DNA of 64,000 nt. It comes from Actinotalea subterranea (GTDB lineage: Bacteria; Actinomycetota; Actinomycetes; Actinomycetales; Cellulomonadaceae). This document shows positions 14,776-21,225 of this stretch, in pieces (within the stretch, counting starts at the first letter, position 1; each line of letters begins with the position of its first letter). The DNA lies in the NCBI RefSeq assembly GCF_008364845.1, contig NZ_VTTP01000003.1, positions 434,001-498,000 of the forward strand, in the 5' to 3' direction. The position numbers and the translations under genes are program-made. The notes beneath the pieces were generated by a model. That model was not told the DNA's origin. It saw nothing but the letters and a program-made list of their open reading frames with translations, and searched no databases.

Positions 14776-17481
14776 CTACGCGAAGCGGCGCAGCCGCAGC
14801 GAGTTCGTCACCACGAGCACCGAGCTGAACGCCATCGCGGCACCCGCGATCATCGGGTTGAGCAGCCCGAGCGCCGCGAGCGGGATGGCCGCGACGTTGT
14901 AGGCGAACGCCCAGAACAGGTTCTGCTTGATGATCCGCAGCGTCTTGCGGGAGAGCCGCACGGCCTGACCCGCGGACCGCAGGTCACCACGCACGAGCGT
15001 GAGGTCCGCCGCCTGCATCGCGACGTCCGTGCCCGTGCCCATCGCGAGCCCGAGGTCCGCCTGCGCGAGCGCGGCGGCGTCGTTGACCCCGTCGCCGACC
15101 ATCGCGACCACGCGGCCCGCGGCCTGGAGCTCCTGGACTGCCGACACCTTGTCCGCGGGCAGGACCTCGGCGACGACCTCCTCGATGCCGACCTCCGCGG
15201 CGACGGCGTGCGCCGCCCCCGCGTTGTCCCCCGTGAGGAGCACGGGTCGCATGCCCAGTGCGCGCAGCTCGGCGATCGCCTCGACGGACGTCGCCTTGAC
15301 CGGGTCACGCAGCACGAGGACGCCCTGCGCGACCCCGTTCCACGCGGCCATGACAGCCGTGGCGCCGTCGGCCTCGGCCGCACGGAACGGCCCGTCGAGC
15401 GCGGACGTGTCGACGTCCTGCTCGCGCAGCCAGGTCGGCCGTCCCACCAGGACGCGGCGGCCCAGGCCGACGCCGCTGTGCGCGGTCCGCACGATGCCGG
15501 TGACGCCGCGGCCGGCCTCGTTGGCGAAGTCGGTCACCTCGTCGTCGCCGATCACGACGCCGTCCGCGCCGACCTGCGGGTCGGTGGCCGTGGCGGCGTC
15601 CGTGGTCGCGGACGCGGGCTCCGGCGCGCCGCCGCTGGTCAGGGTGTCCCGCGCGGCCGACGCGATGGCGCGTGCGATCGGGTGCTCGCTGCGACCCTCG
15701 ACGGCGCCGGCGAACCGCAGGACCTCCTCGGTGTGCACGCCCTCGGCGGGCAGCACGTCGACGAGGCGCATCCGGCCCTCCGTGACGGTGCCCGTCTTGT
15801 CGAGCACCACGGTGTCGACGCGGCGCGTGGACTCGAGGATCTCCGGGCCCTTGATGAGGATGCCGAGCTGCGCGCCACGACCGGTCCCGACGAGCAGGGC
15901 CGTCGGCGTCGCGAGGCCGAGCGCGCACGGGCAGGCGATGATCAGGACCGCGACGGCGGCCGTGAACGCGGCCTGCGCGCCGCCGCCGGTCAGCAGCCAC
16001 ACCGCGAGGGTGCCGAGGGCGAGCACGATGACGACGGGCACGAACACCGCCGAGATGCGGTCCGCGAGCCGCTGCACGGGCGCCTTGCCCGTCTGGGCCT
16101 GCGTCACGAGCCGGCCGATCTGCGCGAGCATCGTCTCCTCGCCCACGCGCGTCGCGCGCACCACGAGGTACCCGGACGTGTTGACCGTGGCGCCCGTGAC
16201 CTGGGACCCGGGCTCGACGTCGACCGGCACGGGCTCGCCCGTGAGGAGCGACGTGTCGACCGCGCTCGTGCCCTCGAGGACCACGCCGTCGGTCGCGACC
16301 TTCTCGCCGGGGCGGACCGCGAACAGGTCGCCGACGTCGAGCGAGTCCACCGGGATGCGGCGTTCGGTGCGGCGCCCGTCGGGCCCCGCCTCGAGCAGTG
16401 CGACGTCGGTGGCCCCCAGGGACAGGAGCGTGCGGAGCGCGTCACCGGCGCGGCGGCGCGAGCGGTGCTCCGCGTAGCGGCCGGCGAGCAGGAAGGTCGT
16501 GACGACCGCGGCGACCTCCCAGTAGAGCTCGGGCAGCACCACCTCTGCGCCCGCCATGCCCGCCATGCCCTCGGAGCCCGCACGCGGGAAGAGCGCGGGC
16601 TCCATCCGCATGCCGATCTCACCGGCGCCGCCCAGCAGCACGGCCCACAGGGACCAGGCCGAGGCCGCGATGATGCCGAGCGAGACGAGCGTGTCCATCG
16701 TCGACGCCCCGTGGCGGGCGGCCCGCGCGGCCGCGCGGTGGAACGGCCACGCGGCCCAGGTGACGACCGGCAGGGCGAAGGCCGTGACGACCCACTGCCA
16801 GCCCGCGAACTGCAGGGGCGGGATCATCGACAGGAGCAGCACGGGCACGCTGAGCAGGGCCGCGACGACGAGCCTGCGGCGCAGGTCCGCGCCCCGGTCG
16901 ACCTCGGGTGCCGAGGTGTCCTCGTCCTCGTCCATGACATGGCCCTCGGCCATGGAGTGGCCGGACAGGGCGTGCTCGACGTCGCTCATCGGGGAGCCCT
17001 GCCCGCCGTGCTCGCTCTGCTCGTCGTGCTCAGCCCGCTCCGTGTGGTGGCCGGCCGCGCGCGTCGGCCGCGGCTTCACGGCCGCGCTGTTGCGGAGCAC
17101 CTTCGCGGTGTACCCGGCGGACTCGACGGCCTTGATCAGGGCCTGCGTGTCGACGTCCCCGGACAGCTCGACGCGCGCCTGCTCGGTCGCGAGGTTCACC
17201 GTCGCGGTCGCGCCCTCGACGCGGTTGATCTTCTTCTCGACGCGGGCCACGCACGAGGCGCACGTCATGCCGCCGACGGCGAGGTCGATCACCGCGACGG
17301 GGCCGGCGGTCTGGGCCAGGGGCCCGGCGTCGGCCGGGGCCGCGGCGCCAGGGGCCGCCGTGCCCTGTGCGGTGGCGGTGCCCTGTGCGGTGGCGGTGCC
17401 CTGCGCCGTGGTGGGGCCGGAGGGTGTCGGGGTGCTCGTGGGTGGCGTGGCTCCCGCGGTGGCGGGCTGGTCGTGGGTCAT
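14776..17481 (-). CDS. copA: copper-translocating P1B-type ATPase
   Basis: A 901-residue copper exporter. An Ala/Thr/Pro/Gly-rich tail (1-60) with an exact six-residue repeat TAQGTA precedes one heavy-metal-associated domain with MTCASC at 72-77. A second low-complexity, His-rich linker follows (about 135-190). Then come eight expected membrane spans, the CPC metal site at 517-519, the phosphorylated D561 in DKTGTVTEG, SEHPIARA and the hinge GDGVNDAAALAQADLGLAMG. It pumps monovalent copper out of the cytosol. It is last in the csoR-copZ-copA order, 93 bases after copZ. Confidence 0.94.
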   Translation of the reverse strand: MTHDQPATAGATPPTSTPTPSGPTTAQGTATAQGTATAQGTAAPGAAAPADAGPLAQTAGPVAVIDLAVGGMTCASCVARVEKKINRVEGATATVNLATEQARVELSGDVDTQALIKAVESAGYTAKVLRNSAAVKPRPTRAAGHHTERAEHDEQSEHGGQGSPMSDVEHALSGHSMAEGHVMDEDEDTSAPEVDRGADLRRRLVVAALLSVPVLLLSMIPPLQFAGWQWVVTAFALPVVTWAAWPFHRAAARAARHGASTMDTLVSLGIIAASAWSLWAVLLGGAGEIGMRMEPALFPRAGSEGMAGMAGAEVVLPELYWEVAAVVTTFLLAGRYAEHRSRRRAGDALRTLLSLGATDVALLEAGPDGRRTERRIPVDSLDVGDLFAVRPGEKVATDGVVLEGTSAVDTSLLTGEPVPVDVEPGSQVTGATVNTSGYLVVRATRVGEETMLAQIGRLVTQAQTGKAPVQRLADRISAVFVPVVIVLALGTLAVWLLTGGGAQAAFTAAVAVLIIACPCALGLATPTALLVGTGRGAQLGILIKGPEILESTRRVDTVVLDKTGTVTEGRMRLVDVLPAEGVHTEEVLRFAGAVEGRSEHPIARAIASAARDTLTSGGAPEPASATTDAATATDPQVGADGVVIGDDEVTDFANEAGRGVTGIVRTAHSGVGLGRRVLVGRPTWLREQDVDTSALDGPFRAAEADGATAVMAAWNGVAQGVLVLRDPVKATSVEAIAELRALGMRPVLLTGDNAGAAHAVAAEVGIEEVVAEVLPADKVSAVQELQAAGRVVAMVGDGVNDAAALAQADLGLAMGTGTDVAMQAADLTLVRGDLRSAGQAVRLSRKTLRIIKQNLFWAFAYNVAAIPLAALGLLNPMIAGAAMAFSSVLVVTNSLRLRRFA
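17364..17412 (-). repeat. 18-base tandem repeat inside copA
   Basis: About three copies of an 18-base unit containing GTGCCCTGTGCGGTGGC encode the TAQGTA repeats in the N-terminal tail of the copper ATPase. The last copy is slightly diverged. In-frame and probably variable in length among strains. Confidence 0.6.
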
Positions 17482-17574
17482 GCGATCACGTCCGTGGGTC
17501 GGTCGGAGCGGTGGGTCGGCGGTGTCCGCCGCGCTCGGGCGCCTCTGCGGCAGCCGGGCGGGCGGGCGTCGTCG

Positions 17575-17811
17575 TCAGAGGAGGGAGCGCGGCGGGGCGA
17601 TGGTGTAGCCCGCCTCGGCGATCGCGTCCTGGACGGCCTCGTCGGCCAGCGGCTCGGTCGAGGTGATGGTGACCTGCGAGGTCGCTCCGGAGACGAGGTC
17701 GACGTGCACGTCGGTCACGCCCGGGAGGGCGCGCAGCTCCTCGTCGACGGAGCGGACGCAGTGCCCACACGTCATGCCCTGGACGCCGATGCTCACGGTC
17801 TGGGTGCTCAT
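17575..17811 (-). CDS. copZ: copper chaperone, heavy-metal-associated domain protein
   Basis: A 78-residue single HMA domain starting at ATG 17811 with AGGAAGG about 7 bases upstream; an in-frame ATG at 17841 would place that site inside the gene, so the shorter start is preferred. The metal motif MTCGHC is in the usual position (about 13-18), where the His replaces the Ala-Ser of the ATPase domain. It carries copper in the cytosol to CopA and may load CsoR. Confidence 0.9.
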   Translation of the reverse strand: MSTQTVSIGVQGMTCGHCVRSVDEELRALPGVTDVHVDLVSGATSQVTITSTEPLADEAVQDAIAEAGYTIAPPRSLL

Positions 17812-17904
17812 GGTCGTGCCTTCCTGTCGGGTGGTGGTCACGTGCTGGTCGTTCTGGTCGTTCGCGAACAGGTGCCGGCGGGTGAGCCGGGCGGTGCGGC
17901 CGTC

Positions 17905-18186
17905 TCAGCTGCGCACGAGGCGGGCGATGGCGTCGGAGGCCTCGCGGACCTTGGCCTGCCCCGCCTCGTCGGACTCACGCGCCGCGTCGACGACGCAGTG
18001 GCCGAGGTGGTCCTCGAGGAGCCCGAGGCTCACGGCCTCGAGCGCCTTCGTCACCGCGGCGACCTGCGTGAGGATGTCGATGCAGTAGGTGTCCTCGTCC
18101 ACCATGCGCGCGATCCCGCGCACCTGCCCCTCCACGCGGCGCAGCCGCTTGAGGTAGTCGTCCTTGGTGCCGCTGTAGCCGGCCAT
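17905..18186 (-). CDS. csoR: copper-sensing transcriptional repressor, CsoR family
   Basis: A 93-residue all-helical protein with the C-H-C copper site C35, H60, C64 in the spacing of copper-type CsoR (not the RcnR or FrmR pattern). It starts at ATG 18186 with GGGAG about 6 bases upstream. It binds its operator without copper and releases it on copper binding. It is first in the csoR-copZ-copA order, and a palindrome of CsoR type lies 35 bases upstream. Confidence 0.93.
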   Translation of the reverse strand: MAGYSGTKDDYLKRLRRVEGQVRGIARMVDEDTYCIDILTQVAAVTKALEAVSLGLLEDHLGHCVVDAARESDEAGQAKVREASDAIARLVRS

Positions 18187-19383: not shown

Positions 19384-19442
19384 TCGCGCACGGGCGCCCC
19401 GGCGTGGCCCGTCGTGTGCGTACGGTGGCCTGGGAGGCGACG

Positions 19443-19796
19443 ATGCCGCAGTGGTCGCAGGACGACGCACGACGCACGCTCGACGCGCGGCGTGAGGAGG
19501 CGGTGCGCCGCGTCGCGGCCCTGACCGGAAGGTTCGAGGAGGTCGTCGACGCCTCCGCGGGCTCCAACGCGGACGACGAGCACGACCCGGAGGGCGCGAC
19601 GATCGCCTTCGAGCGCTCGCAGCTCGACGCGCTCGTGCGGCAGGCGCAGTCCGAGGTCGAGGAGGTGGACGCGGCGCTCGCGCGCGTCGACGCCGGCGTC
19701 TACGGCGTGTGCGAGCGGTGCGGCCGGCAGATCCCCGTCGAGCGACTGGAGGCGCGCCCCGTCGCCCGCACGTGCGTGAGCTGCGCGGGCCGCTGA
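19443..19796 (+). CDS. TraR/DksA-family zinc-finger protein
   Basis: A 117-residue protein starting at ATG 19443 with GGGAGG 7-8 bases upstream. Residues 1-75 form an acidic helical hairpin; the C-terminus carries a four-cysteine zinc finger, CERCGRQIPVERLEA followed by CVSCAGR. Proteins of this type bind in the RNA polymerase secondary channel or act as general regulators; actinobacterial members are often stress related. TACGGT near 19420 may be its -10. It is divergent from the membrane protein gene. Confidence 0.85.
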   Translation: MPQWSQDDARRTLDARREEAVRRVAALTGRFEEVVDASAGSNADDEHDPEGATIAFERSQLDALVRQAQSEVEEVDAALARVDAGVYGVCERCGRQIPVERLEARPVARTCVSCAGR

Positions 19797-19870: not shown

Positions 19871-21181
19871 TCACCCCTCGGTCCCGGACCAGCGGTCCAG
19901 GAGCCCGCTGAGCGCGTCGTACGGCATCGCGGCCGGGAGGTCCTGCCCATCGCGGTAGGCGGTGGCCGCGCGTACGCCCTGGGTGAGTGCGGTCCGTACG
20001 AGCGCCGAGCCCGTGCTGACGCGCCGCACCCCCAGGTCGCGCAGGCGTGCGAGGGGGAGCTGGCTGAGCAGGTTGAGGGGGACGTCACCCAGGGCCTCGA
20101 CCTGCGCGGCGATCTCGCGCTCGTCCCTCAGGCCCGGGACGAACACGCCGTCGGCGCCCGCCTCGACGTAGGCCGCGGCCCGTCGCGCGGTGTCGTGCCT
20201 GTCGACGCCGAGCCAGTGGGTGTCGATGCGTGCGTTGACGAAGAGCTCGGGTGCCACCCGCTTCACGGCCTCGACGAGCGCGGCCTGGGTGCCGACGTCG
20301 GCCAGCCCGCCGTCCCGGCCGTCCTCGAGGTTGATCCCGGCGACGCCCATGGTGGTCAGCTCGGCAGCGAGCTCGGCGACGTCACCGCCGAACCCCGCCT
20401 CGACGTCCACGCTGACCGGGACCGGGAGGCGTGCGAGGCGCCGCGCGAGCGCGAGTGTCTCGGCGCGGGTCGCCCCGGCACCGTCCGGCAGGCCGTGGGC
20501 TGCGGCGACCCCGAGGCTCGTCGTCCCGATCGCGGCGAACCCTGCCTCGACGAGGACGAGCGCGGACCCGACGTCCCACGCGTTGGGCAGCAGGAGGGGC
20601 TCGGGGCCGGCGTGGAGTCGTGCGAAGGTGCGTGCCCCGTCGACGAGGGCGTGCGCGTGCTCGACGCCCGGGCAGGCGTGACGGCCGGACCCGAACGGGA
20701 GGCCCGTCAGGTCGACGAGCACCTCGTCGCCGCCGGGCGTCACCCGCCGGGTCGTCGGCACCGCCGGGTCGTCGCCCCGGACGGCCGCGCGGGTCGCTGC
20801 GCAGGCCTGCACGAGAAGGCCGATCCGCGCGGCGGTGACCTCGTCCCACCTTCCGCCCGCCGCGGCGACGAGTCGGCCGACGGCCTCGTCCGACCCGGGG
20901 GTGACCGGGGTGTGCGGGTGGTAGCACGCAGCCACCGTCTCGACGTCGCGGGTCACGTCCCGGGGCAGCCCGAGCGCCTCGGCGAGCGTGGCCACCGGGT
21001 GGCCCGGCCGGCGCAGCACCTCGGGCGGCACGGCGGCGAGGAGCTGGGTGGTCAGCGCCCGCCGTCGTCGTCGTTCCTCGCCCTCGCTGAAGCGCACCAC
21101 GTGCGAGCGGAGCCAGGCGACCCCCGTGGCGCCGTGGGGCGCGGCCGGGACCGGGTACCGCTCGTCGTCGAGGATGTCCAT
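19871..21181 (-). CDS. fusion of a shortened P450-like domain and an isocitrate lyase/PEP mutase domain
   Basis: A 436-residue protein from ATG 21181. Residues about 190-436 belong to the isocitrate lyase/phosphoenolpyruvate mutase superfamily (LLLPNAWDVGSALVLVEAGF, SVDVEAGFG, GINLEDGRDGG). Residues 1 to about 185 read like a cytochrome P450 with its middle removed: a helix-C-like segment (GEERRRRRALTTQL), a PVATLAEALGLPRDVT segment, and FGSGRHACPG at 163-172 that exactly matches the P450 haem-cysteine consensus (C170). The I-helix is missing. Whether haem is bound is unknown. The gene is divergent from an ArsR-type regulator and shares a 9-base-arm palindrome with it. The lyase part alone could cleave a C-C or P-C bond of a small acid. 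Confidence 0.75.
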   Translation of the reverse strand: MDILDDERYPVPAAPHGATGVAWLRSHVVRFSEGEERRRRRALTTQLLAAVPPEVLRRPGHPVATLAEALGLPRDVTRDVETVAACYHPHTPVTPGSDEAVGRLVAAAGGRWDEVTAARIGLLVQACAATRAAVRGDDPAVPTTRRVTPGGDEVLVDLTGLPFGSGRHACPGVEHAHALVDGARTFARLHAGPEPLLLPNAWDVGSALVLVEAGFAAIGTTSLGVAAAHGLPDGAGATRAETLALARRLARLPVPVSVDVEAGFGGDVAELAAELTTMGVAGINLEDGRDGGLADVGTQAALVEAVKRVAPELFVNARIDTHWLGVDRHDTARRAAAYVEAGADGVFVPGLRDEREIAAQVEALGDVPLNLLSQLPLARLRDLGVRRVSTGSALVRTALTQGVRAATAYRDGQDLPAAMPYDALSGLLDRWSGTEG

Positions 21182-21201: not shown

Positions 21202-21225
21202 ACGGTTCGGTGGTCGCCGAACCGT
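21202..21225. promoter_or_regulatory. operator palindrome between fusion enzyme and ArsR regulator
   Basis: Perfect 9-base arms ACGGTTCGG (21202-21210) and CCGAACCGT (21217-21225) with a 6-base spacer sit in the 64-base gap between divergent genes. It is the obvious binding site for the ArsR-type protein encoded at 21246, which would control both promoters. Confidence 0.75.

Follow-up and report, generated by a model that had tools for sequence, protein, structure and literature searches.

The window, a stretch of 64,000 nucleotides from Actinotalea subterranea, carries on its reverse strand a gene whose product joins a reduced P450-like domain to a PEP mutase/isocitrate lyase-type domain, and divergent from it lies the gene of an ArsR/SmtB-type regulator with an operator-like palindrome between the two (Table 1). 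The 436-codon frame is not a product of chance, as the same two domains are fused in a Streptomonospora alba protein that is 62% identical to the window protein from end to end, and the joining of a P450-like module to a lyase that an earlier note had read from the letters of this DNA is borne out. Just downstream of the fused gene and on the opposite strand is a frame for a short DksA/TraR-like protein with a four-cysteine end (19442-19796), and an ordinary copper-efflux locus, with a copper-type P-type ATPase, a small CopZ-like protein and a CsoR-like regulator adjoining one another, occupies positions 14776-18186 (all named by eye).

Table 1. Features of the fused gene and its surroundings, with positions counted in the window unless an accession is given
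Feature	Position	Strand	Basis
Fused gene, 436 aa: reduced P450-like domain and PEP mutase/isocitrate lyase-type domain	19871..21181	-	ORF translation; full-length Streptomonospora alba homologue
Reduced P450-like domain, residues 1-185	20627..21181	-	Family profile against PDB; realigned structure model
Helix C, residues 35-49; R41 retained; usual His is Arg37 in the window protein	21035..21079	-	Alignment and model
I-helix, residues 114-134; family-specific Gln125; Ala129 replacing catalytic Thr	20780..20842	-	Alignment and model
Haem-cysteine loop FGSGRHACPG, Cys170	20666..20695	-	Translation; Cys in 100/101 family rows
PF13714 PEP_mutase domain, residues 186-407	19961..20626	-	Pfam; nearest solved relative DFA0005, 2ze3; conservation over 72 rows
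Operator-like palindrome, 9+6+9 inverted repeat, ACGGTTCGG-TGGTCG-CCGAACCGT	21202..21225	.	Shuffle test; cross-locus comparison
Divergent ArsR/SmtB-type regulator, 229 aa	21246..21935	+	PF12840 and PF01022 above cut-off; NF033788
Embleya relatives	NZ_CP108785.1 2061409-2061981; NZ_CP108777.1 2159702-2160286		

The C-terminal half had been described as a complete lyase/mutase domain and so it proved, with PF13714 matched almost end to end (profile positions 1-237 of 240) at 225.8 bits against a cut-off of 31.5 (E 7.7e-67), the nearest solved relative being DFA0005 (2ze3, 3.6e-32). Seven residues, S222, D233, D259, E261, E286, N316 and R318, which from knowledge of the superfamily we take to be metal and substrate positions, are each kept in all 72 lyase domains compared; the same 72 of 73 rows were used for the lyase tree, L161 (121 aa) being too short. 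The cysteine of the KKCGH-type loop of the carboxyphosphonate/methylisocitrate group is catalytic, and a stretch of this type is absent from the lyase domain in the alignments. A methylisocitrate or isocitrate lyase proper was considered and rejected, given the absent loop and a prpB score of 61.1 bits against an equivalog cut-off of 354.4. The domain would be expected to cleave or decarboxylate a small oxo or hydroxy acid with the help of a metal.

For the N-terminal half direct searches returned little; residues 1-185 had no Pfam match even at E values up to 10 when the window protein was scanned alone, and a search of the PDB with this domain alone found P450s only at E 0.55 or worse, with a designed repeat protein ranked top. 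As these direct searches are weak the case for P450 ancestry rests on the family. Longer relatives exist in other actinomycetes, and three of ten scanned family proteins pass the PF00067 cut-off (L037 at 4.3e-20, L043 at 4.8e-20 and L042 at 2.5e-9), a further two match below it and five, which include more reduced members, have no P450 match. A profile of 13 family rows (A1, window included) matches P450 structures in the PDB over most of its length, with CYP164A2 at 2.1e-16.

A structure model of the window domain (191 residues, from a two-row alignment) has a mean pLDDT of 69.6 and a pTM of 0.69, with a single long helix at residues 114-134 and with the cysteine loop among its least confident parts (pLDDT below 50 at 153-170). 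With this model Foldseek alone gave no E value below 0.27 and mixed in non-P450 rows, and since this is not significant the chain of sequence comparisons is the main evidence for P450 descent. When the model was realigned to Foldseek's candidates all 50 listed entries were P450s, over model residues 15-191 and with Z scores of 6.8-8.9, values which, being under about 13, can reflect a common arrangement in helical models; CalO2, GcoA, PbdA and the fatty-acid decarboxylases among these entries are P450s whose titles do not say so. The outcome that the earlier note had named as fatal to its P450 assignment, no similarity to P450 folds, did not occur in this realignment. A full-length model from a two-row alignment was poor (mean pLDDT 54). 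With the family profile and the three members above the PF00067 cut-off behind it the claimed ancestry holds and the N-terminal half is, on these comparisons, a P450 descendant.

Alignment of 101 family rows with 16 ordinary P450s as the reference reveals what has been kept and what has been lost. The window domain retains helix C, the core from helix E to helix I, the I-helix itself, the arginine strand that in ordinary P450s follows the K-helix, the cysteine loop and helix L; it has lost the F/G region, most of the meander, the K-helix together with ExxR, and all that precedes helix B. The arginine-rich helix-C-like segment pointed out previously was confirmed and the FGSGRHACPG loop with Cys170 was found as described, which agrees with the FxxGx[HR]xCxG pattern. 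The statement that the I-helix is lacking was wrong, as residues 119-134 (RIGLLVQACAATRAAV) align without a gap with the I-helix of ordinary P450s and fall in the long helix of the model. 

The haem-cysteine is kept in 100 of the 101 family rows, the miss being L062 which is without the cysteine region, and in all 13 fused proteins, and its conservation in homologues of the fusion was a point on which the earlier note had let its reading depend. ExxR, present in all 16 ordinary P450s, survives in 76 family rows; the other 25 have lost it or carry a changed version, and in four rows, every one of them fused, both ExxR columns are empty. Those 25 rows retain the helix-C His in 24, Arg41 in 24, Arg146 in all 25, and His/Arg168 and Cys170 in 24 each (one gapped row accounts for the last two); by analogy with P450cam we take these five positions to be contacts to the haem propionates and iron. 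The window protein alone has Arg at the helix-C His, which is found in the other 100 family rows and in 16 of 16 ordinary P450s. Within the I-helix Gln125, found in 100 of 101 family rows and in none of the 16 ordinary P450s, occupies the first Gly/Ala position of AGx[DE]T, Ala129 stands at the position of the catalytic Thr in 84, and Thr130, beside the lost Thr, is kept in 93. The window motif reads QACAAT in place of the oxygen-activating AGx[DE]T and, as ExxR is missing too, the family is not filed as functional P450s; it may work as a P450-derived partner domain in which the haem ligand has been retained.

The earlier note called the association with a lyase unexpected, yet at 72 of 101 distinct loci the P450-like gene either adjoins the lyase gene or is fused to it. 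The P450-like part alone sufficed to find all but a few of the 101, and four (the window, G008, Streptomonospora alba and a Streptomyces plasmid) came from searches with the fused protein in full or with its P450 part. The lyase is the separate next gene on the same strand in 59 loci, with gaps between profile matches of -3 to 172 nt, and is fused to the P450-like gene in 13, fusion being judged by stop-to-stop frames in genome sequences that are either drafts or complete. There is no lyase in the available flank at 28 loci, and some members may therefore act alone. At the one locus left, G008 from the window's genus, the lyase is beside an ArsR gene and the P450-like gene is some 2.5 kb off. 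Control loci with ordinary P450s or activators (2.6-4.3 kb) have the lyase or this ArsR in none of 51 cases. 

Some individual loci have features of their own. In G008 (L021 3903-7919) the lyase has its own head-to-head ArsR gene, and the P450-like gene that stands apart contains an insert of low complexity, rich in Ser and Ala, and lies beside a gene named by eye as RidA-like. In G142 (L060 5090-6358, reverse strand) the P450-like protein ends in a tail resembling a lyase C-terminus, PAGLPSYTDVQALVT, with no lyase found nearby, which looks like a deletion that took the lyase out of the pair. A Pfam scan of ten proteins, covering neighbours other than ArsR and lyase, identified a DUF998 protein of membrane type immediately upstream of the P450-like gene at three Streptomycetaceae loci (L135 1886-2602, L144 3914-4633 and L160 1978-2664) and a BTAD-type regulator downstream at two, so that linkage to ArsR is not universal.

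Fusion appears to have arisen repeatedly, as the fusion label changes five times on the lyase tree (two changes forced by starred branches) and five times on the P450 tree (four forced), both trees being quick searches with several long branches; the L137 fusion, amid unfused close relatives, could be recent or erroneous. The window, Streptomonospora alba and G935 form one clade on both trees (99 and 96, both starred), which on the P450 tree is nested in a larger clade (97, starred) whose seven P450-like proteins, unfused ones among them, are all strongly reduced. To judge from these genomes the P450-like protein and the lyase are long-standing partners that have been fused several times. Given such repeated partnership and fusion in related genomes, the P450 part probably still serves a function and is unlikely to be a mere relic. 

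A strong member of the family (E about 1e-30 or better) occurs in at least 102 of 297 Streptomycetaceae genomes, as counted from the match listing, of which 85 were examined and 17 lower-ranked ones left out, and a member occurs in at least 9 of 297 genomes of the window's order, the window's own included; these counts are lower bounds as eight candidates were scored per genome. A phylum-wide sample, with six candidates scored per genome, gave a member in at least 3 of 396 genomes, two of them already in the set. A scan of genome contigs added one locus, L029, and no member was found in a scan of viral contigs. The plasmid scan with the window domain returned P450-like relatives, about 50% identical, in two plasmid-listed Embleya records (Table 1). 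Taken on sequence comparison, the fusion, the P450 ancestry and the recurring cassette can be regarded as established.

The ArsR gene and the palindrome had been put forward as signs of a dedicated regulation and this claim holds, with both features confirmed. The window's regulator scores 63.9 bits against the NF033788 cut-off of 55, and that of Streptomonospora alba falls under it (37.5). By itself the 24-bp palindrome has a shuffle p of 0.025, its strong support coming from comparison across loci: TTCGG-N6-CCGAA, with at most one mismatch, is present within the 200 bases that precede the match to the P450-like profile at 70 of 101 loci, 40 of them exact and often 36-54 bases ahead of the match, whereas the background rate elsewhere in the same loci predicts about 0.57 loci with a site, although shared descent inflates the count. 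Distant lineages have it (the window, Streptomonospora alba, G076, G381, G935 and G721), and at 31 of the 101 loci there is no palindrome at up to one mismatch. Allowing up to one mismatch, the window's genome has a single copy of the extended form GGTTCGG-N6-CCGAACC, as would suit a private regulator, and in the window the shorter core recurs once more by chance if one mismatch is admitted. An ArsR gene is head-to-head in 23 of 101 loci, many of which have flanks of only 1.5 kb. The palindrome is also found at loci where no ArsR gene was seen nearby, and it is absent from 4 of 25 loci with ArsR, among them group f19 of the window's order, which we guess to be Microbacteriaceae-like. The ArsR regulator would be predicted to bind the palindrome.

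We would give a probability of about one half to the reading that this is a conserved cassette in which a reduced, haem-binding P450 domain, no longer a monooxygenase, is the cis partner of the lyase. The actinomycete cassette pairs members of a small and divergent family of P450s with an enzyme of the PEP mutase/isocitrate lyase type, their genes usually adjoining and several times fused; TTCGG-N6-CCGAA recurs as its operator, and some loci, that of the window among them, add a divergently transcribed gene for an ArsR-type regulator. In the window clade all that is left of the P450 part is helix C, the helical core from E to I, the strand with the propionate-type arginine, the cysteine loop and helix L. 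On this reading the reduced part would still bind haem through Cys170, against which may be set the Arg at the helix-C His of the window protein and the missing ExxR. The P450 domain would no longer be an ordinary O2-activating monooxygenase, as there is no ExxR, no acid-Thr pair and no F/G lid, and would instead serve the lyase as a haem-dependent cis partner that docks, stabilises or senses a ligand, the lyase's own reaction being a metal-dependent one at C-C bonds, with a small 2-oxo or 2-hydroxy acid as substrate.

A somewhat unlikely alternative is a bifunctional catabolic or biosynthetic enzyme, in which the P450 part oxidises, perhaps as a peroxygenase, the lyase cleaves the product and fusion channels the intermediate. 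Repeated fusion of adjoining genes fits consecutive steps, and the ExxR of 76 members and the widely kept Thr130 also count in its favour, but the Ala at the catalytic Thr position and the near-invariant Gln in the oxygen groove speak against oxidation, and in the window clade ExxR, the K-helix and the F/G lid have all gone. On a more specific proposal, which we consider improbable, those same two changes, the distal Gln and the loss of the catalytic Thr, would let the domain bind a ligand instead of oxidising a substrate, the P450 fold having been rebuilt as a haem-thiolate sensor of O2, NO, CO or a metabolite that gates the fused C-C lyase. If this were true an enzyme would be under the control, in cis, of a haem sensor descended from a P450, and the cassette concerned occurs in about a third of the sampled streptomycete genomes.

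It would likewise seem doubtful that the domain is a haem-free scaffold or allosteric activator, the P450 fold having been reused to stabilise a partner enzyme, for which the P450-derived glycosyltransferase activators such as EryCII and DesVIII are a precedent (excerpts of PMC3391682). Among the NCBIfam models the long member L058 does score best with the activator model TIGR04515, at 123.9 bits against a cut-off of 343, and no match is listed for window-type members; many sub-cut-off streptomycete matches score 180-200 bits, so this match indicates no specific link. The heme-loop cysteine is in none of six over-cut-off TIGR04515 activators and is kept almost throughout the P450-like family, as are the haem-contact arginines. 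These loops were read directly because the motif pattern misses some ordinary P450s, for example the only one found in the window's genome (L196, G000:C4:42296-42856), whose loop reads WGIGRHVCPG. In a tree with the six activators the P450-like family is a separate clade (100, starred), although six more of the 12 best loci, five of them over the cut-off, were unmatched by the profile at 1e-5 and omitted, which could bias the chosen activators towards ones more like the P450-like family. Membership of TIGR04515 is rejected given the kept Cys170, the scores under the cut-off and the separate clade. 

That the P450 part is an evolutionary fossil, decaying while stuck to a working lyase, is most improbable: the graded loss of P450 elements across the family would suit it, but the haem-contact positions are selectively kept, identity to the two nearest fused relatives is similar in both parts (65% against 68% in the lyase for G935, 61% against 64% for Streptomonospora alba), and so is dN/dS (0.17-0.50 in the P450 part and 0.16-0.47 in the lyase part, over nine chosen pairs by a simple counting method, values that are rough in GC-rich genes and saturated for distant pairs but nonetheless alike). 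Of the three options of the earlier note the fossil is thus made unlikely, with purifying selection like that on the lyase domain, and the haem sensor and the scaffold are both still candidates.

Coming back to a cassette with a haem-binding cis partner, no paper on the fusion or cassette was listed in the set of PMC papers to which the search by fusion, lyase family and partner wording was limited. An excerpt of a large survey of Streptomyces P450s states that pseudo-P450s, with one signature motif only, and P450 fragments were omitted (PMC7369989); the 25 members without ExxR would, going by that excerpt, count as pseudo-P450s in such a survey or escape detection. They nonetheless sit in a coherent family under selection, with its usual enzyme partner and a shared operator. 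The family runs from near-complete to half-size proteins and so displays which parts of a P450 are dispensable whilst the haem-cysteine stays, making the abilities of a minimal haem-thiolate core directly testable. For this subfamily of lyases a functional link has been gained.

Each part of the cassette has known counterparts. With bacterial P450s (PF00067; CYP164A2, CYP107 types and P450BioI) the family shares the helix C arginine, the I-helix, the propionate-type arginine, the FxxGx[HR]xCxG loop and helix L, but the window domain is about half their length, has no F/G region and has Gln in the oxygen groove and Ala for the catalytic Thr, and its clade is without ExxR or K-helix. The lyase shares its PF13714-type domain and the conserved acidic, Ser and Arg positions with the ICL/PEPM superfamily (DFA0005 2ze3, 4mg4 and 4lsb); it differs in being fused to or encoded beside a P450-like protein and in its loop, which is short and has none of the KKCGH-type sequence seen in the methylisocitrate lyase group. 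The N-terminal winged helix, the divergent gene and the palindromic site are those of ArsR/SmtB regulators (NF033788), whereas the length of 229 aa, with a long C-terminal region bearing CYDH and CLDWTER motifs (seen by eye), sets the window regulator apart. Finally, the glycosyltransferase activators (EryCII, DesVIII; TIGR04515) are also a reduced P450 fold tied to a non-P450 partner enzyme. According to the excerpts of PMC3391682, EryCII is without the F helices and some portions of G and H and retains J, K and K', and the cysteine is lost in activators of its kind. The activators thus have the K-helix without the cysteine, and the present family, which keeps the cysteine and in the window clade has dispensed with the K-helix, is their mirror image.
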